Assembly: GCA_903823665.1 (NCBI GenBank)
Contig: CAIJTR010000036.1
Location: forward strand, 1-64,000
Length of the DNA: 64,000 nucleotides
Reading direction: 5' to 3'
From: an uncultured Rhodospirillales bacterium
GTDB taxonomy: Bacteria; Pseudomonadota; Alphaproteobacteria; Acetobacterales; Acetobacteraceae
Shown piece by piece: positions 12,649 to 63,184 of the stretch (its first letter is position 1; every line of letters begins with the position of its first letter). The position numbers were made by a program, and so were the translations under genes. The notes under the pieces are model-generated. The model saw only the letters and a program-made list of their open reading frames with translations. It was not told the origin of the DNA and made no database searches.

Positions 12649-13962
12649 ATGCAGATGCACTTTAGCGACACAATATTTGCCTGTGCATCAGGAGTGGGCA
12701 AAGCCGCTCTGTCAGTGCTGCGGATCAGTGGGCCTGAAAGCGGCCGCATTCTGACCGCGTTGTGTGGGCAGGCCTCACACCCACAGCCGCGCCGAGCATC
12801 ACTGCGCCGACTTCTAGGACCCGACGGATTTGTCCTCGACGAGGCATTGGTGCTGTGGTTTCCCGGCCCAGGCAGCTTCACCGGAGAGGACTGTTTCGAA
12901 CTGCATATCCACGGCGGGCGTGCTGTGCAGGAGGGCGTGTTTGACGCATTGGCAAATCTTGGTGGGCGGCCAGCAGAGCCTGGTGAATTTAGCAGACGCG
13001 CCGTCAGCCATGGCCGGTTTGGCTTGCTGGAGGCGGAAGCAATGGCCGACCTCATCGACGCAGAGACGACGCAGCAACGCGATCAAGCGCTACGACAGAT
13101 GGGCGGTGCTCTCAGCGCGCTCTATCAAGAGTGGTCGCAGAGACTTCTGCATTTACTGGCGCAACAGGAAGCGTTGATCGATTTTCCTGACGAGGATCTG
13201 CCACAGGAAGTGGATGAGGCAATGCTGGCGGAGATTGCAGCAGTGGCACAGAGCTACCGGACCCATCTTGCTGAGAGCATCCGCGGCGAGCGTCTGCGCA
13301 CGGGGTTGACGATCGCAATCGCCGGCCGCCCCAATGCCGGCAAGTCTACCCTCATCAACGCCCTATGCCAAAGAGACGTTGCGATTGTCTCCCCCATCGC
13401 CGGCACTACGCGTGATGTGCTGGAGGCAAGGATCGAGCTTGGCGGGGTGCCGGTCACATTGCTCGACACGGCCGGACTGCGGGACAGCGATGACCCGGTA
13501 GAGGCCGAGGGAGTTCGCCGTGCACGTGCGCGCACATCAGCAGCAGATCTGGTGATGGCACTGCAGCCGGCCGAAGATGACGAAGGCCCAGAGCTGCCTG
13601 ACGGCAACTTTGACGTTATCCTTGTCCGGACGAAGATTGATCTGTCAATCGCCCCCCCACATGCCGCGCTAGGAGTGAGCGCCGTGACTGGGCAGGGCCT
13701 GGATGGGCTGATTGCTGCGTTAGACGACAAGGTCCGCCAACTCGCTGGAAGCGTCGGCACGCCGGTCTTCACCCGCGCCAGGCATCGGGTGGCATTGCAA
13801 CAAGCCGAGAGCCACCTTGATGCAGCTTTGCGTGCGCCCCTGCCTGAGTTACGCGGAGAGGAGCTTCGGCTTGCCCTGCAAGCCATAGGACGGATCACTG
13901 GCGCAGTCGGCGTCGAAGATGTGCTTGATTCAATCTTCAGCCAGTTCTGTATAGGCAAGTAG
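12649..13962 (+). CDS. mnmE: tRNA modification GTPase MnmE
   Basis: A 437-residue, three-domain protein: an N-terminal folate-binding domain, a helical domain and an inserted G domain. G1 is GRPNAGKS at 226-233, G3 is DTAG, and the G4 box reads RTKIDL (Thr where NKxD has Asn). The C-terminus is CIGK, carrying the invariant catalytic-site cysteine. With MnmG it installs the cmnm5 or nm5 group at U34 of certain tRNAs. It is immediately followed by mnmG, then rsmG, parA and parB, the standard alphaproteobacterial order. Confidence 0.98.
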   Translation: MQMHFSDTIFACASGVGKAALSVLRISGPESGRILTALCGQASHPQPRRASLRRLLGPDGFVLDEALVLWFPGPGSFTGEDCFELHIHGGRAVQEGVFDALANLGGRPAEPGEFSRRAVSHGRFGLLEAEAMADLIDAETTQQRDQALRQMGGALSALYQEWSQRLLHLLAQQEALIDFPDEDLPQEVDEAMLAEIAAVAQSYRTHLAESIRGERLRTGLTIAIAGRPNAGKSTLINALCQRDVAIVSPIAGTTRDVLEARIELGGVPVTLLDTAGLRDSDDPVEAEGVRRARARTSAADLVMALQPAEDDEGPELPDGNFDVILVRTKIDLSIAPPHAALGVSAVTGQGLDGLIAALDDKVRQLAGSVGTPVFTRARHRVALQQAESHLDAALRAPLPELRGEELRLALQAIGRITGAVGVEDVLDSIFSQFCIGK

Positions 13963-14001
13963 TATATTGTGCCACGTCGAGCGAGGCAGGGGTTCCAACC
14001 A

Positions 14002-15885
14002 ATGAGTGTTCACTACGACGTCGTGGTTATCGGCGGTGGCCATGCCGGAACCGAGGCAGCCGCCTGCGCCGCGCGGATGGGCGCAAGAACGCTACTGCTC
14101 ACCCACCGGATTGAGACGATCGGGGAGATGTCGTGCAACCCCGCGATCGGCGGCATCGGCAAAGGCCATTTGGTACGCGAAATCGACGCTCTTGACGGGC
14201 TGATGGGACGCGCCGCCGACCTCGCCGGCATTCACTTCAAACTCCTCAACCGGAGCAAGGGACCGGCCGTGCGCGGCCCACGTGCGCAGGCTGACCGTGC
14301 GCTGTATCGGCGGGCTATTCAAAGCATGTTAGCCGAACAGTCTGCGCTGGAGTTGCGCGCAGATGCCGTCGGCAATCTTGAGATCGGCAATGACGGACGC
14401 CTGACCGGCGTGATCACCGAGAAGGGTGAGCGCATTGGATGCAGCGCCGCCGTTTTAACCGCCGGGACATTTCTGAGCGGGGTCATTCACATCGGCCACG
14501 ATGCGAGCCCGGCGGGCCGGGTAGGCGAGCCCCCCTCGGTCGATCTGGCGCGGTCATTGCGCCGCCTCAAGCTTCCCCTCGGCCGCCTCAAGACCGGCAC
14601 ACCTCCTCGGCTGGATCGCCAGAGTATCGACTGGAGCGGCCTCGCGGCAGACTGGGGTGACGCGGAGCCCGAACTGTTCAGCACAATGTCGAGCGGCATC
14701 GTGAATGAGCAAATCGCCTGCGGGGTGACGGCGACGACGGCCCGCACGCATGCCATTATTCGCGAGAACCTGCTTTTGTCGGCAGTCTATGGCGGCCAGA
14801 TTGCCGGACGCGGCCCTCGCTATTGCCCCTCGATTGAGGACAAGATTACTAGGTTTGCCGACCGCCCACAGCACCAAATTTTCCTGGAGCCCGAGGGCTT
14901 GAACGATAACACGGTCTATCCGAACGGCATCTCGACCAGTTTACCAGCAAACGTGCAGGCGGACCTGGTGGCGAGCATTCCGGGCCTAGAGCACGCCAAG
15001 ATCATCCGCCCAGGCTATGCCGTGGAATACGACTATATCGACCCACGCGCGCTCACGTCTGCATTGGGGCTTCGTGCAGTCCCAGGCCTCTTTTTGGCCG
15101 GACAAATCAATGGCACCACAGGCTATGAGGAAGCGGCAGCACAAGGCCTGATGGCAGGTTTGAACGCGGCACGGCTTGCGGGTTCGATGCCGGCGGCGAC
15201 ATTCGACCGCGCCGATGGATATATCGGTGTGATGATCAGCGATCTGACAACCCAAGGCGTGTCTGAGCCCTATCGGATGTTCACGTCCCGCGCGGAGTTC
15301 CGCCTCACGCTCCGAGCCGACAATGCTGATCTCCGCCTAACCGAGCGCGGCCACGGTCTTGGCTGTGTCGGGGACGAGAGATGGAACGTCTTTTCGGAGT
15401 ATCGAGACGCAGTGCGGGCTGCCATGCACGTCGCCACCAATGAAGGCCTCACACCATCTGAGCTCCAACGGCTTGGAGCTTCGGTACGACAGGACGGGGC
15501 CTTCCGCTCAGCGCTGACACTGCTGGCATCGGAGGGCATACCAAAGGAAATGCTGATAAACCGCTTCCCTTGGCTCACCACCCTTTCAAAACGAGTGAGA
15601 GAACAACTTGAGTACACCGCGCTCTACGCGGGATACATTGGCAGGCAAGAATCCGAAGCGCGCGGCTTCCGGCGCGAGGAGGCAGCGGCGCTGCCGGAAG
15701 CGATATCATACGCAGCCATTGGCGGGCTATCTGCCGAGCTGCGCGAGAAGCTGGAGGCCGCGCAGCCGCAGTCTATAAGTGCCGCAGCGAGAATTCAGGG
15801 CATGACACCGGCGGGCCTCGCGGCTATTTCGGCGCACATCCGAAAGCGACACACGGCCAACTCTGTCGATGCGTGTTTCACGTGA
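14002..15885 (+). CDS. mnmG: tRNA uridine-5-carboxymethylaminomethyl modification enzyme MnmG
   Basis: A 627-residue FAD enzyme. The dinucleotide motif [10 protein letters not shown] at 11-20 and the family signature GYVEYDY-like [12 protein letters not shown] are present. It partners MnmE in wobble-uridine modification. I chose ATG 14002, with AGGGG a few bases upstream; a GTG at 13969 in frame would add 11 unusual residues. The last codons run into the 38-bp palindrome, and the TGA stop (15883-15885) lies inside the first parS site. rsmG starts within these same bases. Confidence 0.97.
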
Positions 15886-15900
15886 AACACGCATCGACAG
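15863..15900. promoter_or_regulatory. parS site 1, centre of a 38-bp perfect palindrome
   Basis: TGTTTCACGTGAAACA at 15874-15889 is a perfect match to the bacterial parS consensus bound by ParB. The symmetry continues outward for 11 further bases on each side, so 15863-15900 is a perfect 38-bp palindrome. It spans the mnmG stop and the rsmG start, encodes the FHVKH residues of RsmG, and lies 1.4 kb upstream of parB. Confidence 0.95.
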
Positions 15901-16496
15901 CGGGCGACGCAGTTTCACGTGAAACATTCGATCGCCTGAACGAATTCGCAGCGCTCCTGCTCCGTTGGAACAAAACGATCAATCTCATCGCCCGCAACGA
16001 TGAGAGGGAGGTCTGGTCACGTCATATTGCGGACGCCCTACAACTTCTCCCGCTCATGCCGCCCAACATCACCCAGGCTGTAGATCTCGGTTCGGGCGCG
16101 GGATTTCCAGGCCTCATCCTAGCGATTGCCAGCGGTACACACTTCCATCTCATTGAGTCTGACAATCGCAAGGCCGCGTTCCTCATCGAGGCAGCCAGAA
16201 CAGCAAACGCCAAGGTAACCGTGTATGCCTCCCGGATCGAAGCGGTCACTATCCCACCAGTTCGACTGGTAACAGCGCGCGCACTTGCTCCGCTTCGAGA
16301 TCTGATAGGTCTAGCGATGCCTTTCTTGACACCGGATGGCATGTTGCTCGCACCAAAAGGGGCCAATGCGGAGGCTGAATTGACGGATGCCGCTGCGCGG
16401 TGGCACATGGCGGTGGCGCGTACCGAGAGTACAACCAACCCCGCCGCAACCATCCTCCAAATCACAGAGGTCAGTCGTGTCGGACATACCGATTAG
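15873..16496 (+). CDS. rsmG: 16S rRNA (guanine-N7)-methyltransferase RsmG
   Basis: A SAM-dependent methyltransferase of the GidB family, up to 207 residues, that methylates G527 of 16S rRNA. The SAM-binding motif [10 protein letters not shown] is at 71-80. The start is ambiguous because both in-frame GTG codons (15873 and 15882) lie within parS site 1, so translation initiation and ParB binding share the same DNA. It overlaps mnmG by 13 bases and parA by 20, showing a coupled operon. Confidence 0.95.
15911..15926. promoter_or_regulatory. parS site 2
   Basis: AGTTTCACGTGAAACA differs from the consensus parS only at the first base. The core GTTTCACGTGAAAC (15912-15925) is intact. Its centre lies 37 bases downstream of the centre of site 1, inside the 5' end of rsmG. 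Confidence 0.92.
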
Positions 16497-17322
16497 CGCC
16501 ATCACTGCCAGCAAACATTCTGGGCAGGCCACCACCGTCATCGCAATCGCCAACCAAAAGGGCGGAGTAGGCAAAACCACGACCACAATCAATCTTGCAA
16601 CTGCGCTCGCAGTAGCCGGAAAGCGCGTGCTGCTCGTCGATCTTGATCCTCAGGGCAATGCCTCAACAGGCCTCGGCATTGGGCGTGAAGACCGCGGTGC
16701 TGGCACCTATGCCTTGCTGACAGATACGGTCACTGCCGACGCCGTCACCCAAAAGACATTCCTACCCAGTCTATCAATCATCGCAGCCGAGCCTGACCTT
16801 GCGGGTGCGGAGATTGAGTTGGTCGGCGGAGCGCGGCGAGAATTCAAGCTACGAGATGCCCTGCGCCCCAATAGTAAGACCAGCATCAAATATGATTTTG
16901 TGCTCATCGATTGTCCACCAAGCCTCGGTCTGCTGACCCTTAACGGGTTGGTCGCCGCTGATTCCGTTCTCGTCCCACTCCAATGCGAGTTCTTCGCCCT
17001 TGAAGGGCTAAGTCAATTGATGCGAACGATTGAGGCGGTGAAGCGCAATCTGAACACTGCGCTGAAGCTCGAAGGCATTGTGTTGACCATGTATGATCGC
17101 CGCAACAATCTCTCTGATCTCGTGGCCAACGACGCGCGGGGGTTTTTCGGTGAAACCGTTTATGAAACCGTGATCCCTCGCAACATCCGCATCTCAGAGG
17201 CCCCCAGCCACGGCAAGCCGGTTATCATCTATGATCACCGCTCACCCGGGGCTCAGGCTTACATCAAACTCGCTGCTGAGGTGCTGCGGCGCAGTCAACC
17301 GAATAACGGAACACGAGCATGA
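16477..17322 (+). CDS. parA: Chromosome partitioning ATPase ParA
   Basis: A 281-residue deviant Walker-type ATPase. KGGVGKTTT lies at 28-36, followed by DLDPQGNAS and the DCPPSLGLLTLN motif. It forms the nucleoid-bound gradient that moves ParB-parS complexes apart. I chose GTG 16477, which has AGAGG six bases upstream; the in-frame ORF extends to 16387 inside rsmG without a site. It lacks the long DNA-binding N-terminal extension of plasmid ParA proteins, fitting a chromosomal system. ATGA overlap with parB. Confidence 0.97.
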   Translation: MSDIPISAITASKHSGQATTVIAIANQKGGVGKTTTTINLATALAVAGKRVLLVDLDPQGNASTGLGIGREDRGAGTYALLTDTVTADAVTQKTFLPSLSIIAAEPDLAGAEIELVGGARREFKLRDALRPNSKTSIKYDFVLIDCPPSLGLLTLNGLVAADSVLVPLQCEFFALEGLSQLMRTIEAVKRNLNTALKLEGIVLTMYDRRNNLSDLVANDARGFFGETVYETVIPRNIRISEAPSHGKPVIIYDHRSPGAQAYIKLAAEVLRRSQPNNGTRA

Positions 17323-18188
17323 GCGCTAAAGAAGTGAGCCCTCGCCTTGGCCGAGGGCTTGCCGCCCTTTTGGGTGATAGCAAACCATCTGCTGACACGG
17401 CACAGGGTGGTGCCTCTGGGATTAGAGCCATCCCTATTGAACACCTGGAGCCAAGCCCATTCCAGCCACGCGGTGTAATGGACCAAGCCGCACTCGCTGA
17501 TCTTGCCGACTCAATCCGTGCACGCGGCATTCTTCAGCCTTTACTTGCGCGTCCACACCCTTCCAAAAATGGTAAATTCCAGATCATTGCCGGAGAAAGG
17601 CGCTGGAGGGCGTCTCAGGAAGCTGGCCTGCATGAGGTGCCCGTTCTCGTTCGTGAATTAAACGACCTTGAGACGATGGCAGCTGCCCTCGTCGAGAATT
17701 TGCAGCGGCAAGATCTTAACGCAATCGAGGAGGCCGAGGGCTATAAGCGCCTGTTCGATGAGTTCGGCATGACGCAGGAAGCGCTGGCTGAATCAGTTGG
17801 CAAATCGCGCAGCCACATCGCCAACACGTTGCGCCTGCTCAACCTGCCCGCGACAGTGCGACAGGAGGTGAAGAACGGTGCCCTGTCGCCCGGCCACGCG
17901 CGTGCGCTGCTTGCACATCCCGAGCCAGAAAAAGCCGCCCTTGCCGTCATCGCGCGGGGTCTCAATGTCCGGCAAACTGAGGCTCTTGCGAAGGCAAAGG
18001 TTGACGGCCCGGCGAGCCACTCCCTGAAACCAAGCAAGGACCCGGAGACCGAAGCGCTCGAACGGGATCTGAGCCAGCATCTGGGCCTGAAGGTTGATAT
18101 CAGCTTCGACGGCAAAGGTGGCACGGTTCGGTTGAACTATCGCACTTTAGATCAACTTGATGGAATTATTGCATTACTTAACAAATAA
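17319..18188 (+). CDS. parB: Chromosome partitioning protein ParB
   Basis: A 289-residue protein. The N-terminal LGRGLAALLGD (ParA-interacting) comes first. The CTP-binding domain follows, with GERRWRAS at 92-99 and VENLQRQDLNAIEEAEGY. A helix-turn-helix region (ALAESVGKSRSHIANTLRLL) is next, then a C-terminal dimerisation domain. It loads and spreads at parS, and its target sites lie 1.4 kb upstream at 15874 and 15911. It overlaps parA by ATGA and converges with holA. Confidence 0.98.
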   Translation: MSAKEVSPRLGRGLAALLGDSKPSADTAQGGASGIRAIPIEHLEPSPFQPRGVMDQAALADLADSIRARGILQPLLARPHPSKNGKFQIIAGERRWRASQEAGLHEVPVLVRELNDLETMAAALVENLQRQDLNAIEEAEGYKRLFDEFGMTQEALAESVGKSRSHIANTLRLLNLPATVRQEVKNGALSPGHARALLAHPEPEKAALAVIARGLNVRQTEALAKAKVDGPASHSLKPSKDPETEALERDLSQHLGLKVDISFDGKGGTVRLNYRTLDQLDGIIALLNK

Positions 18189-35097: not shown

Positions 35098-36284
35098 GGC
35101 TGGCGTTTCTGGCGGTGATGGCCATCATTCTGTCGGGCTGCACGCCACCGCAGGATTTGCACACCGCACCCAACCCGAGTGCCGGCAAGCAGGTCATGGC
35201 GCTGGCCCCGGTGGGTTTTGGCGATGTGCCAGGCTGGAACGCGGATCATACCGGCGAAGCGTTGGCTGCCTTCGTTGCTGGCTGCGCACACATGAGCGGC
35301 ACACTTGGCGGCAATGGAACAGCGGCGGCGCTTGGCGGGTTGGCGGAGAACTGGAAGCAGGCGTGTGATGCAGCGCGCGAGGTTCCAAAGGCCAATGAAG
35401 TTCTGGCCCGAGCCTTCTTTGAGAAGCAATTTCAGGCCTATGCCATCACCGGCGATGGCAGCGATCAGGGCCTGTTCACCGGGTATTACGAGCCCGAGGT
35501 TCTTGGCTCCCGCAGCCCCGGCTCCGGCTATCCGGCAGCTTTGCTCAGCAAGCCGAATGACCTTGTGCAGATCGACCTGTCCGCTTTCGCCGACGATCTG
35601 AAGGGGCGGAAACTCGGCGGGCGGCTGCAATCAGGCAGTTTCGTGCCGTATTATGACCGGTCTGAGATCGCAGCCGGCGCTTTAAAAGGCAAGCGGCTGG
35701 AGCTGATCTGGCTTGCCAATGAGATCGACGCGTTTTTCCTGGAAATTCAGGGTTCAGGGAGGGTCCGACTTCCAGACGGGCGCGTGGCGCGCGTAACCTA
35801 TTCGGCTCAGAACGGTCGTCCCTATGTGCCAATTGGCAAGGTGCTCGCCGATCAGGGGGCCATTCCGCTTGATCAGGTTTCGCTGCAAACCATCCGCGCC
35901 TGGCTTGAGGGCCACCCGGCTGAGGCGCAGGGGGTGATGAACCGCAACCCGTCTTTCGTGTTCTTCCGCGAATTGATCAACACCCGGGCGGATCAGGGGC
36001 CACCGGGCGCATTGGGCGCACCGCTGACACCAGGGCGATCAATCGCCGTTGATCGCTCCTATCTGCCGTTGGGTGCCCCGGTGTTTGTTGACACCACCGA
36101 TGCTATCACAGGCGACAAGTTCCAGCGGTTGATGGTGGCGCAGGACCTTGGTGGTGCCATCAAGGGGCCGGTGCGGGCAGATATTTTCTTCGGCTGGGGT
36201 GAGGACGCAGAGGCGCATGCCGGGCATATGCGCCAGCAGGGACGGCAATTCCTGCTGCTGCCAAAGGCGGCGTCCGGTAACTGA
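35094..36284 (+). CDS. mltA: Membrane-bound lytic murein transglycosylase A
   Basis: A 396-residue lipoprotein. Its signal peptide ends in AIILSGC with the lipid cysteine at 16. The MltA domain follows (GLFTGYYEPEV, FFLEIQGSGRVRLPDGR), with the terminal 3D domain (AVDRSYLPLGAPVFVDT, AQDLGGAIKGPVRADIFFG) carrying the catalytic aspartate region. It cleaves peptidoglycan strands to anhydromuropeptides at the outer membrane. The start overlaps the tim44 stop, and the stop TGA shares its A with the ATG of the next gene. Confidence 0.95.
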   Translation: MRLAFLAVMAIILSGCTPPQDLHTAPNPSAGKQVMALAPVGFGDVPGWNADHTGEALAAFVAGCAHMSGTLGGNGTAAALGGLAENWKQACDAAREVPKANEVLARAFFEKQFQAYAITGDGSDQGLFTGYYEPEVLGSRSPGSGYPAALLSKPNDLVQIDLSAFADDLKGRKLGGRLQSGSFVPYYDRSEIAAGALKGKRLELIWLANEIDAFFLEIQGSGRVRLPDGRVARVTYSAQNGRPYVPIGKVLADQGAIPLDQVSLQTIRAWLEGHPAEAQGVMNRNPSFVFFRELINTRADQGPPGALGAPLTPGRSIAVDRSYLPLGAPVFVDTTDAITGDKFQRLMVAQDLGGAIKGPVRADIFFGWGEDAEAHAGHMRQQGRQFLLLPKAASGN

Positions 36285-37057
36285 TGCGGCTGATATGTGG
36301 CGACTGCCTGGAGGTTCTGCCAAACCTTGATGTCGCCTCCGTCGATGTCATCGTGACCTCACCGCCCTATAATATCGGGCTTGGCTACGAGGCCTATGAC
36401 GACCGCTTGGATGAGGCCGCCTATCTGAACTGGATGGTCGATGTGGCCACGGCCCTGCGCCGGGTGATGCAGCCGGGTGCGTCGTTCTTCCTCAATATCT
36501 CCGGTTCATCGACACGGCCTTGGCTGCCGTTTGAACTGATCGTGCGGCTGCGTTCGTTGTTCGTCCTTCAGAACCACATCACCTGGATCAAATCCATCAC
36601 TGCGGGGGACGACACGGTGGGGCATTTTAAGCCGGTGTCAGGCCAACGCTTTCTGCATCACGCACATGAACATATTTTTCATCTGACCTTGTCCGGCAAT
36701 GTAAAGCTCAACCGGCTGGCGATCGGTGTGCCTTATAAAGACAAATCCAACATCGCCCGACGCGGCCATGCGAGCGACCTACGCTGCCGGGGCAATACAT
36801 GGTTCATTCCCTACGATACCATCCAGCGCAAGGCGCAGAAGTTCAACCATCCTGGCACATTTCCCATCGACCTGCCGCGCTGGTGCATCCGCCTCCATGG
36901 CACGACGAACGCGGTGGTGCTCGACCCTTTCATGGGCACCGGTACAACAATGGTGGCAGCTCAACTTGAGGCATGCACTGGCGTAGGAATCGACGTGGAC
37001 CCGGCCTATGTCGAAATCGCCCACGCGCGACTGGCGCAAGCCGGGCAGGCCGCGTAA
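36284..37057 (+). CDS. Orphan beta-class DNA methyltransferase (N4-cytosine/N6-adenine)
   Basis: A 257-residue methyltransferase. The catalytic motif TSPPYNIG is at 25-32 and the SAM-binding motif DPFMGTGTT at 214-222. With the catalytic motif before the SAM motif, the order is that of the beta class. The intervening part (KLNRLAIGVPYKDKSNI, RGNTWFIPYDTI) is presumably target recognition. No restriction gene lies nearby, and its ATG overlaps the mltA stop by one base, so it belongs to a housekeeping transcript. It is not CcrM: that enzyme has a DPPY motif and is longer. The recognition sequence is unknown. Confidence 0.9.
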   Translation: MRLICGDCLEVLPNLDVASVDVIVTSPPYNIGLGYEAYDDRLDEAAYLNWMVDVATALRRVMQPGASFFLNISGSSTRPWLPFELIVRLRSLFVLQNHITWIKSITAGDDTVGHFKPVSGQRFLHHAHEHIFHLTLSGNVKLNRLAIGVPYKDKSNIARRGHASDLRCRGNTWFIPYDTIQRKAQKFNHPGTFPIDLPRWCIRLHGTTNAVVLDPFMGTGTTMVAAQLEACTGVGIDVDPAYVEIAHARLAQAGQAA

Positions 37058-42790: not shown

Positions 42791-43405
42791 TTAATTTATT
42801 AACACGCCGTGCTGCCGCAGAAACCCGAAAAGCGGCAATAACGGCAAGCCAAGGATGGCGGAGTGTTCACCTTCTATTTTGTCGAAAAGATGCACCCCTT
42901 GGCCTTCGAGGCGATACGCGCCCACCGTTTGCGTGAGTGCCGTGCCCTCAGCCTCAAGGTACTCAGCCAAAAACGCCTCGGAAAAACGACGCATGGTGAG
43001 CTTTGGTTGGGCGACGTGATGCCACAGCCTCTGTTCACCGGTCTGACAAATGACGGCAGTGACGAGTGTATGGGTCTGTCCACGAAGTGCCAGCAGATGT
43101 GTGCGGGCCTCGTTGAGATCGGCGGGCTTATCAAACCAACGATCATTGCACACAAGGATCTGATCACAACCGATCACCACAGCGTCAGGGTTGCTGCGGG
43201 CGATACGGAGTGATTTCATTTCTGCCAGCAACAGCGCTGTGGCTGCCACTTCCATTCCCTCAGCACGGGCGGACCGTTTAATCTCGTCCTCATCCACGCC
43301 GGATGTTCGAGCCTCGAATAGAATGCCAGCTTGCGCCAATAGGCTCTGCCGCGATGACGACGCGCTGGCCAGTATCAACGGGGGGGTTGATACCTGAAAG
43401 CTCAC
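42791..43405 (-). CDS. maf: Maf-type nucleoside triphosphate pyrophosphatase
   Basis: A 204-residue Maf/YhdE-family protein. Near the N-terminus it reads [19 protein letters not shown], followed by GCDQILVC and the [27 protein letters not shown] segment. These enzymes hydrolyse non-canonical or modified nucleotides and were historically linked to septum inhibition. The start overlaps the end of ppsR by four bases, and both read away from the candidate origin. Confidence 0.94.
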
Positions 43406-44265
43406 GACACCGGGCTTTCTACTTTGCGCCTGCGCTCATGCCACGCTTGCATCAACGTGATGATGGTGGCTGCCGTCTCTTCAATCGAGCGCCTGGTGAC
43501 ATCGATCACCGGCCAGCCGCGCTGAGTGCAAAGCCGTCTTGCCCATAAAAGTTCGGATTTGACCGCTTCATGGTCCACGTAAATACCGGAATCTTGTCGA
43601 ACGGTCCCAGCGGTTGGCCCAGCACCGATCAGCTTCAACCGGTGCCGGCGAATTTCGATCAACGCCTCTGGATCAAGCGTCAAGCCGATAACAGGGCATA
43701 CCGGGTTCTCTAGCCCCGGTGGATCTTGTGTTCCAGGTACAAGGGGAATGTTCGCGGCCTTGATGCCTCTGTTCGCAAGATAGAAGGAGGTGGGTGTTTT
43801 TGAGGATCGCGACACACCGACGAGGACGACATCCGCCTCCGCAATTCCTGCCTGCGCCTGTCCGTCATCGTGAGCCAAAACATAGTGCATGGCGTCGATG
43901 CGACGGAAATAATCAGCATCAAGCACGTATTGCCGTCCCGGCCGGGCCGCGGCCTTCTCACCCAGATGCTCCTGAAACATCGAAATCACCGGGTCGAGCA
44001 CGTTGACCACGGCCACATCAAATCGCTGGCATGCGCTTTCGAGCTCGGCGCGCAATCCCTTATCGACCAACGTGGACAAAACCGGGCCGGGCTCTGCCTC
44101 GATACCCTCGATTACCCGATGTAGCTGGAACCGGGTCCGGATTAGGCTCCAACGATGGTACAGGATTGACGCGTGTTCGAACTGCGACACCGTGGCGCGG
44201 GTGATCGAATTCAGCGTCTCGCCGGTGGCGTCAGACACTAGATGGAGGTTGATGCGGTTCGACAT
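43402..44265 (-). CDS. ppsR: Pyruvate, phosphate dikinase / PEP synthase regulatory protein
   Basis: A 287-residue bifunctional serine/threonine kinase and phosphorylase of the DUF299 family. The P-loop-like motif [11 protein letters not shown] is near the middle, and the N-terminus [17 protein letters not shown] is diagnostic. It controls PEP synthase or pyruvate phosphate dikinase by reversible phosphorylation. Its gene is the known left neighbour of the chromosome origin in Caulobacter (RP001 homologue); here too hemE lies on the other side. Confidence 0.94.
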
Positions 44266-44575
44266 GGTCTGAGGATAGCGGGGATAAGTTGTCAGTTCAT
44301 CCCCTCATATGACGCGATTTTTTGCGACCGGGGATAACCTATCACCGAGGGCGTACCTGGGATGAAATTTCACAAGATTTGTGCAACTGGGGGATGATGC
44401 GATAAAACGTCGCAACAGCAATATGTTAGCGCTGCCAGTGCATGTGGAAAAAGGTGATGATCACTTTCACCAGCGCCGGTACCCCGTGATCCACAGGCAA
44501 CAACTAAGACTTCAACAAGACTCTTATCTTTTTATCATTGATAAGAAGATAAGCCGGACGAGGACCAGAGGGACG
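44266..44575. other. oriC: Candidate chromosome replication origin (oriC) between ppsR and hemE
   Basis: A 310-base non-coding gap in the position of the Caulobacter origin. It contains TGATCCACA at 44487-44495, which matches the Caulobacter G-type DnaA box. TGTGGAAAA at 44443-44451 is a reverse box with one mismatch. CGGGGATAA occurs twice, at 44279-44287 and 44329-44337 (reverse boxes with two mismatches, exactly 50 bases apart). An AT-rich near-perfect inverted repeat at 44523-44553 would suit an unwinding element. Genes on both sides read away from it. No CtrA-type TTAA-N7-TTAA site was seen. Confidence 0.72.
44487..44495 (+). promoter_or_regulatory. DnaA box (TGATCCACA)
   Basis: TGATCCACA differs from the E. 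coli R1 box (TTATCCACA) only at the second base and equals the G-type box of the Caulobacter origin. It is the best DnaA site in the ppsR-hemE gap, 28 bases from the AT-rich inverted repeat. Confidence 0.75.
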
Positions 44576-45622
44576 ATGACCAAGAAGATTTTGCGGGTGC
44601 TGAATGGTGAAGCTGTCTGGCCGCCGCCGGTATGGCTGATGCGTCAGGCTGGCCGGTTCCTGCCGGAATATCGCGCCGTGCGTGCCACCACGGCTGGCTT
44701 CATGGATCTTTGCACCACGCCGGAGAAGGCCGCTGAGGTCACTCTGCAGCCAGTGCGCCGGTTTGGCATGGACGCCGCCATCTTGTTCAGTGACATCCTC
44801 GTGTTGCCGTGGGCGCTGGGTCAAAAGCTGGAATTTGCGGAAGGGGAAGGACCCATCCTACCGCCAATTCGTGATGCGGCGGGCGTGGAAGCACTCGATA
44901 CCGCCGGCGTGCGAAATGCCATCAAGCCGATCCTGGAAACCGTCCGCTTGGTCCGCGCAGCTTTGGATGAGCGGGAGCGGGAAGGCGAGGGACAGGCAAC
45001 TCTGATTGGGTTCGCCGGGAGCCCGTTCACAGTGGCCTGCTACATGGTCGAAGGCGGTGGCTCCAAGGAATTTGCCCATGTCCGAGCGATGGCGCATGGC
45101 GAGCCGGAGTTGTTCGGAGCCCTGATGGAAAAGCTGATCACTTCGACGATCACCTATCTTTCGGCCCAGATTCTGGCGGGTGCTGAAGCGGTGATGCTGT
45201 TCGACAGCTGGTCCGGCATCTTGTCGCCGCATTTGTTCCGGCTTCACGTCATCGAAGCAACGGCACGGATTGTAACCGCTTTGCGCTCGCGGTTTCCCGG
45301 CGTTCCCGTCATCGGCTTCCCGCGTTTGGCTGGCATGATGCTGGGTGAGTATGCGGCTCGCACGGGCGTGCAGGGTGTGGCGATCGATACCTCGGCTGAG
45401 CCCAGCTATGCGGCCGCGATGATCCCGACCGCGATGGCGTTGCAGGGCAATCTTGATCCGTTGGCACTGGTGGCCGGTGGGGACGCGCTGACGCGCGAGG
45501 CGGACTCAATTTTGCAGGCGCTGAAGGGGCGGCCGCATATCTTCAACCTTGGCCACGGCATTCTGCCACACACGCCGCCGGATCATGTGGCTCAACTGAT
45601 CGCACAGATCAGAGCAGCTTGA
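44576..45622 (+). CDS. hemE: Uroporphyrinogen decarboxylase
   Basis: A 348-residue enzyme that converts uroporphyrinogen III to coproporphyrinogen III. WLMRQAGRFLPEYR near the N-terminus is the conserved substrate-binding segment, and the second signature GFAGSPFTVACYMVEG follows. I chose ATG 44576 because family homology begins there. An in-frame ORF to 44381 would run through the candidate origin and encodes nothing recognisable. It starts a heme gene run with hemH, a HAD phosphatase gene and hemJ. Confidence 0.97.
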   Translation: MTKKILRVLNGEAVWPPPVWLMRQAGRFLPEYRAVRATTAGFMDLCTTPEKAAEVTLQPVRRFGMDAAILFSDILVLPWALGQKLEFAEGEGPILPPIRDAAGVEALDTAGVRNAIKPILETVRLVRAALDEREREGEGQATLIGFAGSPFTVACYMVEGGGSKEFAHVRAMAHGEPELFGALMEKLITSTITYLSAQILAGAEAVMLFDSWSGILSPHLFRLHVIEATARIVTALRSRFPGVPVIGFPRLAGMMLGEYAARTGVQGVAIDTSAEPSYAAAMIPTAMALQGNLDPLALVAGGDALTREADSILQALKGRPHIFNLGHGILPHTPPDHVAQLIAQIRAA

Positions 45623-48125: not shown

Positions 48126-49400
48126 ATGCACCTCGCCGAACTCAAGGCAAAAACACCGGCGGACCTTTTGTCCTTCGCCGAATCACTGAACATCGAAAAC
48201 GCATCATCGCTGCGCAAGCAGGACATGATGTTCACTATTTTGAAAACGCTGGCGGAAAACGACCAGGCCATTCACGGGGAGGGCACACTTGAAATTCTCT
48301 CTGATGGCTTTGGCTTCCTCCGCAGCCCGCAGAGCAATTATCTGCCCGGCCCGGACGATATCTACATTTCCCCAACACAGGTTCGCCGTTTTGGCCTGCG
48401 CACTGGCGACACCGTAGAAGGTCAGATCCGAGCGCCGAAGGATGGTGAGCGCTACTTCGCCATGTTGAAGGTGAACACGATCAACTTCGAGCCTCCTGAG
48501 GCGGTGAAGCATCGAATCAACTTCGACAATCTGACGCCGCTTTATCCTGATCAGCGGTTGAAGATGGAAATCGAGATGAAGGAGCTGCCACCAAAAGGCA
48601 GCACTCGAGATAGTATCCCCCGTGTGATCGATCTCGTGGCGCCCATCGGTAAAGGCCAGCGCGCCCTGATCGTGGCACCGCCGCGCACCGGTAAAACGGT
48701 GATGCTGCAGTCGATCGCCACCTCGATTTCGGCTAACCATCCTGAGGCGTTCCTGATCGTGCTGCTGATCGACGAGCGGCCAGAGGAAGTCACAGACATG
48801 GCGCGCACGGTGAAGGGCGAAGTTGTCGCCTCGACCTTTGACGAGCCGTCGACTCGCCACGTGCAGGTCACCGAAATGGTTCTCGAAAAGGCCAAGCGTC
48901 TCGTGGAACACAAGCGTGACGTGGTGATTTTGCTCGACTCCATCACCCGTCTGGCCCGTGCCTACAACACTGTTGTACCGTCCTCCGGCAAGGTGCTGAC
49001 GGGTGGTGTGGACGCCAACGCCCTGCAAAAGCCGAAGCGGTTCTTCGGTGCTGCTCGTAACATCGAGGAAGGTGGGTCGCTCACGATCATCGCCACCGCC
49101 CTGATCGACACTGGCAGCCGCATGGACGAAGTGATTTTCGAAGAGTTCAAGGGCACCGGCAACAGTGAGATCATTCTCGATCGCAAGCTGGCTGATAAGC
49201 GCACGTTCCCGGCGGTCGATATCACCAAGTCCGGCACCCGCAAAGAGGAGTTGCTGGTGGATAAGGGCACGCTGTCGAAGATGTGGGTGCTGCGTCGTAT
49301 CCTCAATCCGATGGGTCCAATGGATGCGATGGACTTCCTGTTGGACAAGCTGAAATACAGCAAGAACAACAACGATTTCTTCGACGCGATGAACACCTAG
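48126..49400 (+). CDS. rho: Transcription termination factor Rho
   Basis: A 424-residue hexameric RNA helicase. The N-terminal helix bundle is [20 protein letters not shown], and the cold-shock-like RNA-binding domain contains [23 protein letters not shown]. The ATPase domain has GKGQR at 175-179 and the P-loop PPRTGKT at 185-191, followed by [13 protein letters not shown]. The protein ends in FFDAMNT. Its TAG stop (49398-49400) is part of palindromic repeat copy C. Confidence 0.98.
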
Positions 49401-49461
49401 AGCAACGCCCGATCATATTGAACCAGCTTGGCTCAATATGATCGTGGCTAAGTTGCTCTAG
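49397..49461. repeat. Palindromic intergenic repeat (copy C, complete)
   Basis: The left arm is 49397-49424 (CTAGAGCAACGCCCGATCAT then ATTGAACC). The right arm is 49430-49461 (GGCTCAATATGATCGTGG then CTAAGTTGCTCTAG). They flank a 5-base loop. The arms match copies A and B closely, and the extra CTAAG in the right arm is shared with copy B. It begins at the last codon of rho and could form the rho transcript's 3' hairpin. Confidence 0.82.
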
Positions 49462-49474
49462 GGTCATATATTTC

Positions 49475-49525
49475 TAGAGCACGAACTTTCGAACAGAAGA
49501 TTCCCTCTGGTCGAAACGTGCTCTA
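49475..49525. repeat. Second short inverted repeat (TAGAGCACG type)
   Basis: TAGAGCACG at 49475-49483 pairs with CGTGCTCTA at 49517-49525. An inner TTCGA/TCGAA pair lies just inside the arms. The outer arms resemble the TAGAGCA ends of the neighbouring repeat, but the interior is different, so this is a distinct element or a divergent relative. It is the only copy seen in the window. Confidence 0.6.
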
Positions 49526-49563
49526 ACGACGCCGCAGCGAAACGGCATGCCACGAGGATCAGG

Positions 49564-50001
49564 TCAAGGCCGGTTCCGCGGGCCACTCGTTGCGCCAGAT
49601 CGGCCGCCAGCATGATTGCCACCCCCCCCGCCAGTGTGGCCGCCGCCTTGGCCGCCGACGTGAACGCCACCACCCGACGCGCCCGCATGGCCGCCGGGGC
49701 GACCACCCCCTTGGGGAATGGAAGGCACGCGTTGCCCGCCTGGTGCGGGTCTGAAACCGTGATTGCGATCACCGCCGCGATACCGGTCACCACCGTCACG
49801 GCCAAATGGCCCAACCGCAAAGCCGCTATCCCATCCACCGTAATCCACACCGAAAGGCGAGTAATAGCCTGGATCAGTGGCGAAGGTAGCACCATAACCG
49901 ACATCAGGGTTGTAGCCCGCCCCAACAGGTTGGAGCGCACAACTCGCCGTCATCGCCAGCAGAGCGAGGCAGCCCAACGCCCGTTGCAGAGGTGCGGTCA
50001 T
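49564..50001 (-). CDS. Gly-rich lipoprotein, hypothetical
   Basis: A 145-residue protein. A lipoprotein signal peptide (CLALLAMTASC, Cys21) is followed by a Gly/Tyr/Asp-rich segment and a low-complexity Gly/His tail (GGHTGGGGGNHAGG). I recognise no family. It overlaps the VOC-domain gene by ATGA (49998-50001), the best evidence that it is translated. The tail resembles disordered envelope or metal-binding segments, but that is only composition. Confidence 0.65.
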   Translation of the reverse strand: MTAPLQRALGCLALLAMTASCALQPVGAGYNPDVGYGATFATDPGYYSPFGVDYGGWDSGFAVGPFGRDGGDRYRGGDRNHGFRPAPGGQRVPSIPQGGGRPGGHAGASGGGVHVGGQGGGHTGGGGGNHAGGRSGATSGPRNRP

Positions 50002-50900
50002 GGCAACACCTCCTTGCTGTCAAATGCAGTCCATTCCAACAGCCCAAACGCGGCACCATTGGGATCTGACACCACTGCAATTTGCCCGCCATGGCGGTCG
50101 CTGTGAGGTGGAACAATTACCTTCCCGCCGAGTGCGCGCAGCTTCGTGATGGTGTCGTCAGTGTTGAGGACGCGGATGTAGTTCAGCCAGTAAGGGTAGC
50201 GGTATGCCTGCCCAGCCGGCAACCTGTTCACACTGGCGCGCGCATATTCGTCAGACGCCAACATAAAATGGCCGCCGCCATTGTCATCGGGCAGATCGAA
50301 GACCTGGTAACTGAAAATCGACTGATAGAACCCGGCATCGGTATCGGGGTCGGTGGTATGCAGGGATGACCATATCCATTGTCCAAGTGGCACCAGTTCG
50401 TCTTCAGGATCACCGCTGACTGATACCAGTGTGCCGAAAATCGCGCCCTGTGGATCGGCATAGATCGCCTGTCTGCCCAGCCCGGGAATATCCTTCGGCG
50501 GACGAACGACGTGAGCACCATATTGCTCCGCGAGCACCTTTGTCGCATCGGCATCACGAACGGAAAACATCGTCAGCCATGCTGGCTTGCGCGTCAGCGG
50601 ACCAGCAACCTCACGACGAATAAGGCCCGCAACCGGATGATCGTTGATGGTCGCCACCGCATAGTCAGGTGCCTTATCTTCGGTCGCCCGAAACCTCCAG
50701 CCGAACATCTGACCATAAAAGAGTTCGCTGGCATCAAGATCTGGCGTCACGAGTTCAAGGAAAATCGGTTTGCCCACGTGCCGGTCTGGCGTCGATGGGA
50801 TGACAAGCGGCGGCACGCTATGCGGCTGGGCGCTTGCGGATGAGGCCCCGGCCCAGATGACAAAACCTGCGAGCAGGCTTTGCCGGATAAGGCGCTGCAT
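49998..50900 (-). CDS. Exported protein with two VOC (glyoxalase-like) domains
   Basis: A 300-residue protein with a Sec signal peptide (VIWAGASSASAQ) and two tandem VOC domains: ~43-160 (IFLELVTPDLDASELFYGQMFGW) and ~170-290 (WSSLHTTDPDTDAGFYQSIF). VOC proteins bind metals and act as lyases, dioxygenases or antibiotic-binding proteins, mostly in the cytoplasm. The substrate is unknown. AGGAG precedes the ATG. It is co-transcribed with the downstream Gly-rich lipoprotein. Confidence 0.85.
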   Translation of the reverse strand: MQRLIRQSLLAGFVIWAGASSASAQPHSVPPLVIPSTPDRHVGKPIFLELVTPDLDASELFYGQMFGWRFRATEDKAPDYAVATINDHPVAGLIRREVAGPLTRKPAWLTMFSVRDADATKVLAEQYGAHVVRPPKDIPGLGRQAIYADPQGAIFGTLVSVSGDPEDELVPLGQWIWSSLHTTDPDTDAGFYQSIFSYQVFDLPDDNGGGHFMLASDEYARASVNRLPAGQAYRYPYWLNYIRVLNTDDTITKLRALGGKVIVPPHSDRHGGQIAVVSDPNGAAFGLLEWTAFDSKEVLP

Positions 50901-50970
50901 GATGGCTCCTGTGATCGAGAACCATCACGCTATGCGAACCTTCACCGCAAAGGTCAGCCTCGGAATTCAC

Positions 50971-51597
50971 TCACCGGCTTGAGGGCAACTTTCGCAGTTG
51001 GAAAAGTGCCTGCTCGCCAAAAATGTTGGCGAGGCTGGCATTGCGCCGCCAGGGTGATTTCCACCCGTCCTCATCAATCGCCAGCCATTGTTCGACGGCG
51101 TAGCCCTCCTCCGCACATAGCACGAAGAAATCGCGGATGGTGCAGGGATGGATGTTTGGCGTCTCGTGCCACGGCCGCGCCCAGACGGAGGTCATCGGCA
51201 TCCGCCCACTCCAGAGCAACTGCAACCGCACCTGCCAATGCCCAAAGTTTGGAAAGCTCACAATGGCACGTTCGCCGATACGCAGCATCTGCCGAAGAAC
51301 CTCACGCGGCTTTTCCACCGCCTGCAGCGTTCGGCTTAGCACCACATAATCGAACGCCCGATCCGGGTAGTGTGACAAATCACTGTCGGCATCGCCATGC
51401 ATCACCGGCAAGCCACGTGCGACGGTGCGCGTTACTTCCGCCATGTCGATCTCAATGCCACGCGCGTCGCACCCACGCGTGCGCGTCAGTTCATCGATCA
51501 ACGCGCCATCTGAACAGCCAATGTCGAGCACGCGGCTGCCGGGTGCCACCATTTCCGCGATGAGCCGTAGGTCAACGCGCATGTTCTTGGCGCTCAT
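50971..51597 (-). CDS. metW: MetW, methionine biosynthesis methyltransferase-like protein
   Basis: A 208-residue protein with the SAM-binding motif [12 protein letters not shown] and the MetW-specific [19 protein letters not shown] and [15 protein letters not shown] segments. MetW works with MetX in homoserine acetylation in many proteobacteria, and its exact activity is debated. It overlaps metX by ATGA, the usual arrangement. Confidence 0.95.
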
Positions 51598-52742
51598 TGC
51601 GGATCAAGCCCTGCATGTGCAGCACAGCCTGAAAGAAAACCGGCCACAATCCGGCGCAGATCCGGTTCATCGAGCAGGAACGCGTCGTGGCCTTTATCTG
51701 ACTCCACTTCCACAAAACTCACATTCGCCGCCGCCTTGTTCAACGCCCGCGCCACAGCCCGGCTTTCGGCGGTGGGGAACAGCCAGTCGGACGAGAAGCT
51801 GATGATGCAGAACCGCGTTGGCGTCCCTGCAAAGGCACGGGATAAATCGCCCTCATGCTCGGCTGCCAGGTCGAAGTAATCCATTGCCCGCGTGATCGTG
51901 AGATAGGAGTTCGCATCAAACCGCCGCACAAACGTGCTGCCCTGGTGCTGTAGGTAACTCTCGACCTGGAACATATCGCCGAACATCGCGAGCGGAGCGG
52001 CGGCGCTGCCCTGTAGCTTACGCCCAAACTTCCGGTTCAGCGCCTGCTCGGACAGATAGGTGATGTGCGCCACCATCCGCGCCACACCAAGGCCGCCGGC
52101 AGGCACACGGCCCGTCGCGTAATATTGCCCACCGTTGAAGTCAGGATCCGCGAAAATTGCCTGTCGCCCAACCTCGTTGAACGCAATGTTCTGGGCCGAA
52201 TGATAGGCTGCGGTGGCGATCGGCAGTGCTGCAAACACCGCCTCAGGATACGTTGCCGCCCATTCCAGAACCTGCATGCCGCCCATCGAACCGCCGATCA
52301 CCGCAAACAGGCGATCGATGGCAAGCCGGTCAATAAGCCGCTTTTGCGCGCGTACCATGTCGCGGATCGTGATGGGTGGAAAGTCTGTGCCCCAAGGTGC
52401 CTCACCCGGCGCTCGTGGTTCCATGGGTCCAGTGGTTCCCATACACCCACCAAGCACGTTACTACATATGACAAAATAGCGGTCTGTGTCAATGGGTCTG
52501 CCGGACCCAACGAGCTGATCCCACCACGGGCCCTTACCCGTCACCGGGTGGCGCTCGGCGACGTATTGGTCCCCAGTCAATGCATGACAGATGAGCACAG
52601 CATTGGAGCGCTCCGCATTCAGCGTCCCGTAGCTTCGATATGCCACGGTGAGTGACGCCAGATGCACACCGCAATCAAGCAACAGCCCGTCTGTGAAGAC
52701 GTGACTTTGGTGGGTGATATCGGGAATGTCGGCCTGATCCAT
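51594..52742 (-). CDS. metX: Homoserine O-acetyltransferase
   Basis: A 382-residue alpha/beta-hydrolase-fold acetyltransferase that makes O-acetylhomoserine for methionine synthesis. The nucleophile is Ser152 in GGSMGGMQ, the aspartate is in SSDWLFP and the histidine in [19 protein letters not shown] and [10 protein letters not shown] are diagnostic. ATG 52742 has GGAG five bases upstream; an earlier in-frame start (52781) is weaker. It diverges from the chorismate mutase operon. I see no SAM-II-type riboswitch in the 128-base leader. Confidence 0.95.
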
Positions 52743-52870
52743 ATAACTCCGTCCATAGGCCGGGCAGGGCTGTCTCCGCAACCTTGCCGATGTTCATGCA
52801 ACGGCCCAGCAATGCTTTGCATTGGCCTTGGCATCAGCTATTCCGAAAGCAACCCTATTTGATAGCAGCC

Positions 52871-53752
52871 ATGTCCAACACTCTGCCTCAACTTGCACCC
52901 CAAACTGACACGTTGGAGAGCCTCCGCGCGGAGATCGACCGGCTGGACGACGCCTTGCACGACATCCTGATGGCACGTGCTGAGATTGTCACCCGCGTGG
53001 GGGCTCTTGGCGCAAAGGGAGCCGTGCCGCTGCGGCCGGGGCGGGAGGCTGACATTATTCGCCGTCTGCTGCGCAGGCATCGCGGCGCTTTGCCGAAGCG
53101 CGTTTTGCCGCGCATCTGGCGCGAGCTGTTGGCGGCAACGACGGCGATGCAAGGTCCCTACACCATCACAGTCTGCGAAGTGCCGCGAGCCTCTGGCACG
53201 GACGGATATGCCACCCTCACGCGGGAGCATTTCGGCACGGGGACACCAACGCGCGTCCATCGCAGCCCCGCTCAGGCGATCGCCGAGGTGAGTGCCGGCA
53301 CCGCCATTGCCGCCGTTCTGCCGATGCCGTCTGAGCAGGATGATAGTCGCGAAGCCTGGTGGACCGCGTTGCTGCAACGCGACACGCCACGCATTCATGT
53401 GGTGGCACGTCTGCCATTCTGGTCGCCCCGTGCCGAGGGAGCGCCACAAGTCCGCGCGCTCGTTGTCTCCGCCGCGGCACCTGATCGCAGCCAGCACGAC
53501 CACACATTGCTCGGCCTCGAATTATCCCCAGAGATGAGCCGTGCAAGGCTTTCGACGGCGCTCACCGAAGCAGGGTTTGTCACCAGCGGCATCCTGCTAC
53601 GACGTGACGAGCATGATCCGCGCTCGCTGCTGCTGGTTGATGTGGATGGGTTTGTGACTGAAGACGACCCGCGCCTTGCCATGCTCGGCACCCTGCGTCC
53701 GCCGGTGGTGCTTGGAGCCTATGCAATGCCAGTTGATGGAGAGACGCCATGA
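52871..53752 (+). CDS. Chorismate mutase (AroQ) with C-terminal regulatory-like region
   Basis: A 293-residue protein. Residues ~14-105 form an AroQ-type helical chorismate mutase ([34 protein letters not shown]). The remaining ~185 residues resemble the back half of bifunctional mutase-prephenate dehydratases (a type-2 periplasmic-binding-like fold plus an ACT-like end), but I see no convincing dehydratase active-site motif. It converts chorismate to prephenate for Phe/Tyr. ATG 52871 is where homology begins. It overlaps hisC by four bases. Confidence 0.88.
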
Positions 53753-54855
53753 ATGAGATGAGCCGCCCCGCCGCCCCTCAGCCGCGCGCCGAAGTGTTGA
53801 CGATTGAAGCTTACAAAGCTGGCGGGAGCAAAATCGAGGGTGTGAACCGCATCGTCAAACTCTCCTCCAATGAGGGCGCGTTCGGTCCACCGAAAGCAGC
53901 GCAAGAGGCCTATCTCAAGATTGCCGCGAACCTACATCGCTACCCGGATGGTGGCTCGCTGGAGCTGCGTCAGGCCATCGGCGCGCGCTTTGGCCTCGAC
54001 CCGGAGCGACTCGTTTGCGGCACTGGCTCGGACGAGCTGATCCAGCATCTTTGCCATATCTACGCCGGCCCCGGCACCGACATCCTGATGAGCATGCATG
54101 GCTTCACCATGTATCAGATCTCCGGCACCTATGCGGGTGCCCGCGTGATCCAGGTGCCGGAACGGAACCTCACCTGTGACGTCGATGCGATGATCGCAGC
54201 CGTCACGCCGGAGACGCGCCTCGTGTTCATCGCCAATCCCAACAATCCCACGGGAAGCCTCTTGGCGCAGTCGGAGGTTGAACGCCTGCGTGCTGGACTG
54301 CCTGCCGACATATTGCTGGTGCTGGATGCCGCCTACGCTGAATACGTCACCGAGGCGGATTACGACGCCGGCGTGAAGCTGGTTGATGCCGGTGAGAACA
54401 CCATCATGCTGCGCACCTTCAGCAAGGTGTTCGGCCTGGGCGGAATGCGCGTGGGCTGGGGTTACGGCCCGGCTGCGGTGATAGATGCGCTGAACCGGGT
54501 GCGCGGCGTGTTCAATGTCAACCTCGCGGCACAGGCAGCGGCGGTGGCGGCTTTGGCAGAACCCGGCTGGGTCGAGGCGAGCGTTGCCCACAACGTCCAA
54601 TGGCGTGACTGGCTGATGGCGGCGCTGAACACCATCGGCATCAAAACATGGCCGAGCCACGGCAACTTCTTCCTGGCTGATTTCGGCACCGCCGAGCGCT
54701 CTGCCGCCGCCAACGCGTATCTGATGTCGCGTGGGCTGATCGTGCGCGCGATGAACAGCTACGGCCTGCCGCAAACCTTGCGCATCACCGTTGGCACGGA
54801 GGAGGAATGCCGCATGGTGGCAGCCGCCCTCGGAGATTTCGTGACACATGCCTGA
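53749..54855 (+). CDS. hisC: Histidinol-phosphate / aromatic amino acid aminotransferase
   Basis: A 368-residue fold-type I PLP aminotransferase. The PLP lysine is in [15 protein letters not shown], and [13 protein letters not shown] and NPNNPTG are typical of HisC. Its place between chorismate mutase and prephenate dehydrogenase suggests it mainly transaminates aromatic 2-oxo acids or prephenate; histidinol-phosphate activity is also possible. It overlaps both neighbours, by ATGA and by 8 bases. Confidence 0.93.
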
Positions 54856-55735
54856 ACCGCTGTTTCGCCGCTTGGCGCTGATCGGCATTGGGCTGATCGG
54901 CAGTTCGGTCGCGCGCATTGCCATGCAGAACGGCAATCTCGCAGCCGAGATTGTCGCCAACGCCCGCACCCAGGCAACGCTTGATCGCGTCGTCGAACTC
55001 GGCATCGCGCATCACGTGGAAATCGACGCGGCCCGCTGCGTCGAAGGTGCCGACTGCGTGATGTTGTGCGCGCCGGTCGGCGCTTACGCCGCCTTGGCCG
55101 AAGCCATCGCGCCATATTTGGCACCCGGCTGCATCGTGACCGACGTTGGCTCGACCAAGCAATCCGTCATCCGCGACGTCGGGCCATTGCTGCCGGAAGG
55201 CGTGCATTTTGTCCCAGGCCACCCGATGGCTGGTACTGAATATTCTGGTCCGGACGCTGGCTTCCTCACCCTGTTCGAGGGCCGTTGGTGCCTTCTCACC
55301 CCGCCGCCGGGCACGGACGAGGCAGCGGTTGAGAAGATCGCTGAGTTATGGCGTCGCTGCGGCTCGATGATCGAGATTATGGAGCCGGGCCATCACGATA
55401 AGGTCGTCGCCGTCGTCTCCCATCTGCCGCACCTGCTCGCGTTCACCATCTGCGGCACCGCCGACGATCTCGCCGATGAAAGCCGCCAGCAGGTCCTGAA
55501 ATTCGCCGCCGCCGGGTTCCGCGATTTCACCCGCATCGCGGCATCGGACCCCACCATGTGGCGCGACGTGTTCCTCAACAACCGCGAGGCGCTGCTGGAA
55601 ATGCTCGCCCGTTTCACCGAGGACGCGCAGGCGATGGGCCGCGCGGTGCGCTGGGGCGACGGTGATTACATCACCGACAAGATCGAACGCGGCCGTGCAA
55701 TCCGCCGGAGCCTGATTGAGCTGAAGCAGGCCTGA
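54848..55735 (+). CDS. tyrA: Prephenate/arogenate dehydrogenase
   Basis: A 295-residue NAD(P)-dependent dehydrogenase of tyrosine synthesis. The Rossmann motif is [15 protein letters not shown], and [15 protein letters not shown] contains the conserved histidine and the substrate-binding region. [13 protein letters not shown] completes the family pattern. Cofactor preference and the choice of prephenate versus arogenate cannot be read with confidence. It ends the three-gene operon and converges with the D-aminopeptidase gene, 3 bases apart. Confidence 0.94.
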
Positions 55736-55738
55736 CGG

Positions 55739-57304: not shown

Positions 57305-57345
57305 CGCGCGCCACTCCGTTATGTGTGGCGCAGGCTATCAGAACC

Positions 57346-58071
57346 CTAACCCGCCGCCATCCCGCCCAGATACGCCGCGCGCACCTGTGGGTCGTTCCAC
57401 AACTCGTCCGGCTTGCCCTGCACCAGCAGATTGCCGGTCTCCAGCACATAGCCACGATCCGCCACCGAAAGCGCCATATGTGCGTTCTGCTCCACGAGCA
57501 GCACGGTGGTGCCGAGTTTGCGGATTTCGCCGATGACCTTGAACACCTGCTGCACGATCAGCGGGGCCAAACCAAGCGATGGCTCATCGAGCAGCAGCAC
57601 GCGCGGATTGGCCATCAGCCCGCGCGCAATCGCCACCATCTGCAATTGCCCCCCCGACAATGTCCAGCCGAGCACGTCGGCCAGCCTGCGCAGATCGGGG
57701 AAGAGATCAAACTTCTGATCCACCTCGCGCTTGGTGTCAGCGCCGGAGATGCGACGGTTGGAGGCACCGAGGATCACGTTTTCCCGCACCGTCAGACCGG
57801 GGAACACGCGCCGCCCCTCGGGAACATGCGAAACACCCAGCCGCGCAATAGCCTCGGTTGTCTGGCCGAGCAGCGATTTGCCATCCAACGTGATGCTGCC
57901 GGCAACATGCGGCACAAGACCCGATATGGCGCGCAGCGTGGTGCTTTTGCCGGCACCGTTGGCACCCAGCAGAGCCACAATCTCACCCTGATCCACCGAA
58001 AGGTCGAAGCCCTTCAGCACCTCGCCCGCACCGTAGCGCGCGCGCAGATCCTTGATCTCAAGCAGCTTCAT
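57346..58071 (-). CDS. livF: Branched-chain amino acid-type ABC transporter ATPase LivF
   Basis: A 241-residue ABC ATPase. The Walker A motif is GANGAGKST, the signature is LSGGQLQMVAIARGL, and LLLDEPSLGLAP gives Walker B. ATG 58071 is chosen because homology starts at MKLLEIKDLRARYG; the ORF extends to 58143 inside the preceding gene. It overlaps livMG by 14 bases and is followed by the D-aminopeptidase gene. Confidence 0.94.
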   Translation of the reverse strand: MKLLEIKDLRARYGAGEVLKGFDLSVDQGEIVALLGANGAGKSTTLRAISGLVPHVAGSITLDGKSLLGQTTEAIARLGVSHVPEGRRVFPGLTVRENVILGASNRRISGADTKREVDQKFDLFPDLRRLADVLGWTLSGGQLQMVAIARGLMANPRVLLLDEPSLGLAPLIVQQVFKVIGEIRKLGTTVLLVEQNAHMALSVADRGYVLETGNLLVQGKPDELWNDPQVRAAYLGGMAAG

Positions 58072-60693: not shown

Positions 60694-60702
60694 CAGGTCA
60701 GA

Positions 60703-63153: not shown

Positions 63154-63184
63154 TCCTATCCGTTCGCCACATCGCCTGATCTGA

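Follow-up and report, generated by a model that had tools for sequence, protein, structure and literature searches.

A hemE-type chromosome replication origin very probably lies between ppsR and hemE in an Acetobacteraceae bacterium

Does chromosome replication in this uncultured member of the Acetobacteraceae begin in the gap between ppsR and hemE, or elsewhere on the chromosome? The ppsR-hemE gap is an ordinary location for an alphaproteobacterial origin, and in Caulobacter the origin was mapped experimentally at the hemE/COG1806 pair, in a gap of 404 bp (PMC1914354). We analysed the gap in the context of the window, that is, the whole 64-kb stretch of DNA under study, and compared it with the corresponding gaps of family relatives; placement of the genome in the Acetobacteraceae was judged from its named relatives.

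The ppsR-hemE intergenic region

The gap is 310 bp long and non-coding, with ppsR on the minus strand and hemE on the plus strand diverging from either side (Table 1). An in-frame GTG at 44381 could extend the hemE frame upstream; the alignment to the hemE genes of relatives begins at 44576. Elsewhere in the class, 24 of 29 genomes examined have ppsR and hemE as divergent neighbours, and the 85 unique ppsR-hemE gaps collected from Acetobacteraceae measure 291-498 bp, with a median of 314 bp. An Rfam search of the gap returned no matches. The original prediction had described a gap of this length, its two flanking genes and four DnaA boxes inside it, all of which lie where it had placed them.

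Table 1. Coordinates of the features discussed, numbered from the first letter of the window.
Feature	Position	Strand	Evidence
Very probable oriC region, ppsR/hemE intergenic	44266..44575	.	gap length, boxes, family alignment
ppsR (PF03618; COG1806, RP001 homologue)	43402..44265	-	domain match
hemE, uroporphyrinogen decarboxylase (PF01208/TIGR01464)	44576..45622	+	domain match
CTATCCTCA, weak DnaA-like fifth site, adjoining the first TTATCCCCG	44270..44278	-	motif scan; conserved block
TTATCCCCG box, weak-type	44279..44287	-	motif scan, family alignment, genome count
TTATCCCCG box, weak-type	44329..44337	-	motif scan, family alignment, genome count
TTTTCCACA, strong-type DnaA box	44443..44451	-	motif scan, family alignment
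TGATCCACA, strong-type DnaA box	44487..44495	+	motif scan, family alignment
Predicted DNA unwinding element, least stable 50 bp of the gap	44502..44551	.	stability scan
GACTC, candidate CcrM-type GANTC site inside the unwinding element	44519..44523	.	sequence, alignment
mnmE-mnmG-rsmG, upstream of parAB	12649..16496	+	gene context
parS, perfect TGTTTCACGTGAAACA	15874..15889	.	motif scan
parS, one mismatch	15911..15926	.	motif scan
parA	16387..17322	+	gene context, domain match
parB	17319..18188	+	gene context, domain match

A conserved arrangement of DnaA boxes

The two strong-type CCACA boxes (44443-44451 and 44487-44495) face each other at a distance of 35 bp, a spacing that is also the most frequent one among relatives. 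Compared with dinucleotide shuffles of the gap, the presence of two boxes within one mismatch of TTATCCACA has a P value of 0.0045 and that of two TTATCCCCG boxes a P value of 0.0025, and the four boxes together were recovered in 0 of 2000 shuffles. None of the 310-bp stretches elsewhere in the 64-kb window holds two boxes of either class, and a TTATCCCCG pair within 60 bp occurs a single time in the 4.54-Mb assembly (4,538,145 bases), at this gap. By itself, TGATCCACA is uninformative because the genome holds 41 copies of it; the cluster of DnaA boxes in the gap exceeds chance.

The same sites recur across the family. Of the 85 unique gaps, 88% contain a box that differs from TTATCCACA at no more than one base, versus 5% of shuffles, and 82% contain a TTATCCCCG-type box, versus 9.5%, although the gaps are mutually related and these counts are therefore non-independent. 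Alignment of 77 gaps, out of the 85 counted, revealed a conserved block at the ppsR end, GGATA.CGGGGATAA (GaGGATA.CGGGGATAA where it spans the weak CTATCCTCA site), followed by the further blocks CGGGGATaA, cTGTGGA.A and gGGtaCCCCgt.ATCCACAGG, the last of which precedes a G-poor tract that turns T-rich. The most frequent spacing of the two CCACA boxes is 34-36 bp. At the position of the reverse strong box, where this genome has TTTTCCACA, relatives mostly carry TTGTCCACA or TTATCCACA; at that of the forward box, the commonest form is TTATCCACA (16 of the 77 gaps), followed by TGATCCACA (9) and TCATCCACA (8), and the GG directly after it is near-invariant. The reading of TGATCCACA as a Caulobacter-type box did not hold up: it is a species-level variant and, judging from the alignment, not a conserved Caulobacter G-box.

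An unstable, G-poor element beside the forward box

A low-stability, AT-rich element adjoins the forward DnaA box, and its least stable part, 44502-44551, ranks in the top 0.05% for instability among the 50-bp stretches of the window. AT content reaches 63% at 44496-44560 versus 39.7% window-wide, which bears out the earlier description of an AT-rich hemE end. In relatives, the place corresponding to the unwinding element has a top strand that is G-poor and later T-rich. At 44496-44535 and the equivalent positions of relatives, G on the top strand mostly stays below 10% per column after the GGcc, so that 3' of the forward box a G-depleted tract of about 30 bases gives way to a T-rich part family-wide.

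Inside the unwinding element there is also a near-perfect inverted repeat, CTTATCTTTTTATC-ATT-GATAAGAAGATAAG, with 14-bp arms (44523-44553). The hairpin folds well in this genome (z -3.0), and partial versions exist in some congeners; the family median z is -0.3, and because no equivalent is shared generally by family members, we rejected the hairpin as an origin part.

Searches for CtrA, IHF and DnaA-trio elements

The exact CtrA (TTAA-N7-TTAA) and IHF consensus sequences are absent from the gap, and among 77 family gaps they occur in 1% and 5%, respectively. CtrA control is thus not indicated, and consensus matching gives no sign of Caulobacter-like control at this origin. The DnaA-trio module has been described for many origins (PMC8287927; PMC6669920). 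Searching for at least three trios within 16 bp of a box, we found a longest run of one in this gap, on the expected strand, and no enrichment in the family, where runs occurred in 22% of gaps versus 45% of shuffles.

GC skew and centromere sites

We sampled GC skew in five relatives, each of a different genus and with a closed or nearly closed genome, using 20 stretches of 20 kb per genome. In each, the skew turns from minus to plus at hemE, to within the resolution of the sampling, although it is weak in one of them. When hemE is set as the origin of a two-arm model, R2 values of 0.72, 0.77, 0.84, 0.41 and 0.90 result, and these match the best fit; when dnaA is set instead, R2 drops to 0.53 and 0.08 in two relatives, and the other three admit no acceptable model. 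The two genes are 185 kb apart in one of these genomes and more than 600 kb apart in the other four.

The parS pair at 15874-15926 comprises the only two such sites in the whole assembly. The pair sits where mnmG meets rsmG, immediately ahead of parA and parB and 28 kb from the gap; the ppsR-hemE gap is on the same contig, and dnaA is on another. The pair recurs in congeners, in one case 33 kb from hemE and on the same side. Among the closed relatives, parS lies 9-55 kb from hemE in most and 88-98 kb away in one; another genome has one outlying weak site, and the pattern search found no sites in two.

Skew in the genome under study tells against this picture. The assembly is a draft of 211 contigs, and its own skew covers the 94-kb contig (94,076 bases), where skew is +0.03 to the left of the gap and -0.10 to the right, or +0.05 to +0.11 and -0.13 to -0.29, respectively, at fourfold sites. 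An origin would give the opposite sign, and the discrepancy persists when fourfold sites, or genes of either strand, are considered. To the right of rho (49.4 kb), gene order differs from that of congeners, and a contig block at 83-92 kb belongs to the opposite arm in one congener, whose arm shows almost no skew over 200 kb. Because synteny is lost right of rho and the congener's arm is nearly unskewed, local skew is weak evidence in this genus; nevertheless, the wrong sign counts as an unexplained point against oriC. Local GC skew as support for oriC was accordingly rejected. Right of rho (49400-64000 in the window and 64001-94076 on the contig), skew is strongly negative, as low as -0.2, whichever strand the genes are on, contrary to the prediction from an origin at 44.4 kb.

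Identity of the origin and alternative explanations

Given the conserved box layout, the unstable DNA, the skew switch in five relatives, and the presence of parS and parAB in the window, we are highly confident that 44266-44575 is oriC, a hemE origin of the Caulobacter/Rickettsia type. The original prediction had drawn the same conclusion, and conserved boxes, unstable DNA, the hemE skew switch of relatives and parS/parAB support it.

It is very unlikely that replication starts elsewhere, for example at dnaA, with the ppsR-hemE gap being ancestral or unused. In favour of this possibility are the wrong sign of the local skew and two publications that assign oriC to the vicinity of dnaA, one for A. 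pasteurianus 386B (PMC3751514) and the other for A. cerevisiae KSO5 (PMC13209655), but in the five closed relatives skew switches at hemE and the dnaA fit is worse or absent. Moreover, the 4.4-kb dnaA locus of this genome contains one box within one mismatch, parS is not on the dnaA contig, a survey of Rhodospirillales found that dnaA is not near ori (PMC8116508), and conservation of the sites would be unexpected for an unused origin. The oriC assigned in KSO5 lies at the skew maximum, 51 kb from dif (PMC13209655), and for this reason its position, as we read it from the text of that paper, is more readily reconciled with a terminus than with an origin. The published Acetobacter dnaA origins (PMC13209655, PMC3751514) conflict with the hemE skew switch observed in five family relatives. 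We reject dnaA as the origin on skew, box content and parS.

DnaA doubles as a transcription factor, and the boxes lie in a divergent promoter region, where they might control the two flanking genes, or titrate DnaA, with no origin function; this explanation accounts neither for the unwinding-prone DNA and the nearby parS/parAB nor for the fact that skew switches at hemE in five genera, and we regard it as less likely still. The explanation that these 9-mers arose by chance, the gap being intergenic and AT-richer, could cite the abundance of TGATCCACA alone, but is hardly credible in the face of the shuffles, the window scan, the genome-unique TTATCCCCG pair and the conservation of the same sites in family relatives.

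Proposed mechanism and comparison with known origins

With the ppsR-hemE gap taken as oriC, and by analogy with characterized origins, DnaA would bind the two CCACA boxes and spread cooperatively from them in the direction of ppsR, onto the weaker TTATCCCCG sites; weak TCCCC-type boxes of Caulobacter require cooperative DnaA binding (PMC4468827). The AT-rich DNA at 44502-44551 would then be opened by DnaA, the helicase could be loaded there, and two forks would depart, while the new origins would be segregated through ParB at parS, 28 kb off.

The gap resembles Caulobacter crescentus Cori in its flanks (hemE and COG1806), its similar size, its AT-rich stretch, and the presence of two DnaA site classes, CCACA-type and TCCCC-type. 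It differs in that no CtrA TTAA-N7-TTAA or IHF consensus is present, in that the G-box variant TGATCCACA is unconserved in Acetobacteraceae, and in that its weak boxes, towards ppsR, are of the TTATCCCCG form. A hemE origin is also predicted for Rickettsia prowazekii, where COG1806 (ppsR) flanks it on the opposite side, but Rickettsia origins are much more AT-rich, at about 82%, and have reported CtrA and IHF sites (PMC1914354). Sphingopyxis, too, has a predicted hemE origin with DnaA boxes and a DUE (PMC4741004). As in the Bacillus-type basal unwinding system, a DnaA box stands beside unwinding-prone DNA, with GC-rich GGcc directly after the box in most relatives; unlike in that system, no DnaA-trio run rises above shuffles, and a G-poor C/T/A tract is found instead.

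These comparisons raise the broader possibility, for and against which we see the balance as even, that Acetobacteraceae have a distinct hemE-type origin layout without CtrA consensus sites, and that the published dnaA origins are misplaced, some perhaps near the terminus. Starting from ppsR, such a layout would comprise TTATCCCCG sites, a pair of CCACA boxes that face each other across about 35 bp, and a G-poor tract replacing DnaA-trios.

The present analysis fixes the likely replication start for the family to which the acetic acid bacteria belong. Knowledge of the origin position is needed for gene-dosage work, for growth rates derived from metagenome coverage, and for oriC-based vectors. 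Our results further suggest that dnaA-based origin annotations in Acetobacteraceae, including the published Acetobacter oriC, should be rechecked, and they make available, for comparison with Caulobacter, a compact origin that lacks the CtrA consensus.

Other genes in the window

Two further genes of the window attracted our attention. An N6/N4 DNA methylase of 257 aa is encoded at 36284-37057, downstream of an MltA-domain gene and 7 kb from oriC; its match to CcrM is weak, far under the CcrM cut-off. The other, at 29079-31532, encodes an 817-aa protein that combines a subtilase domain with a Hint_2 domain, a pairing that looked unusual.
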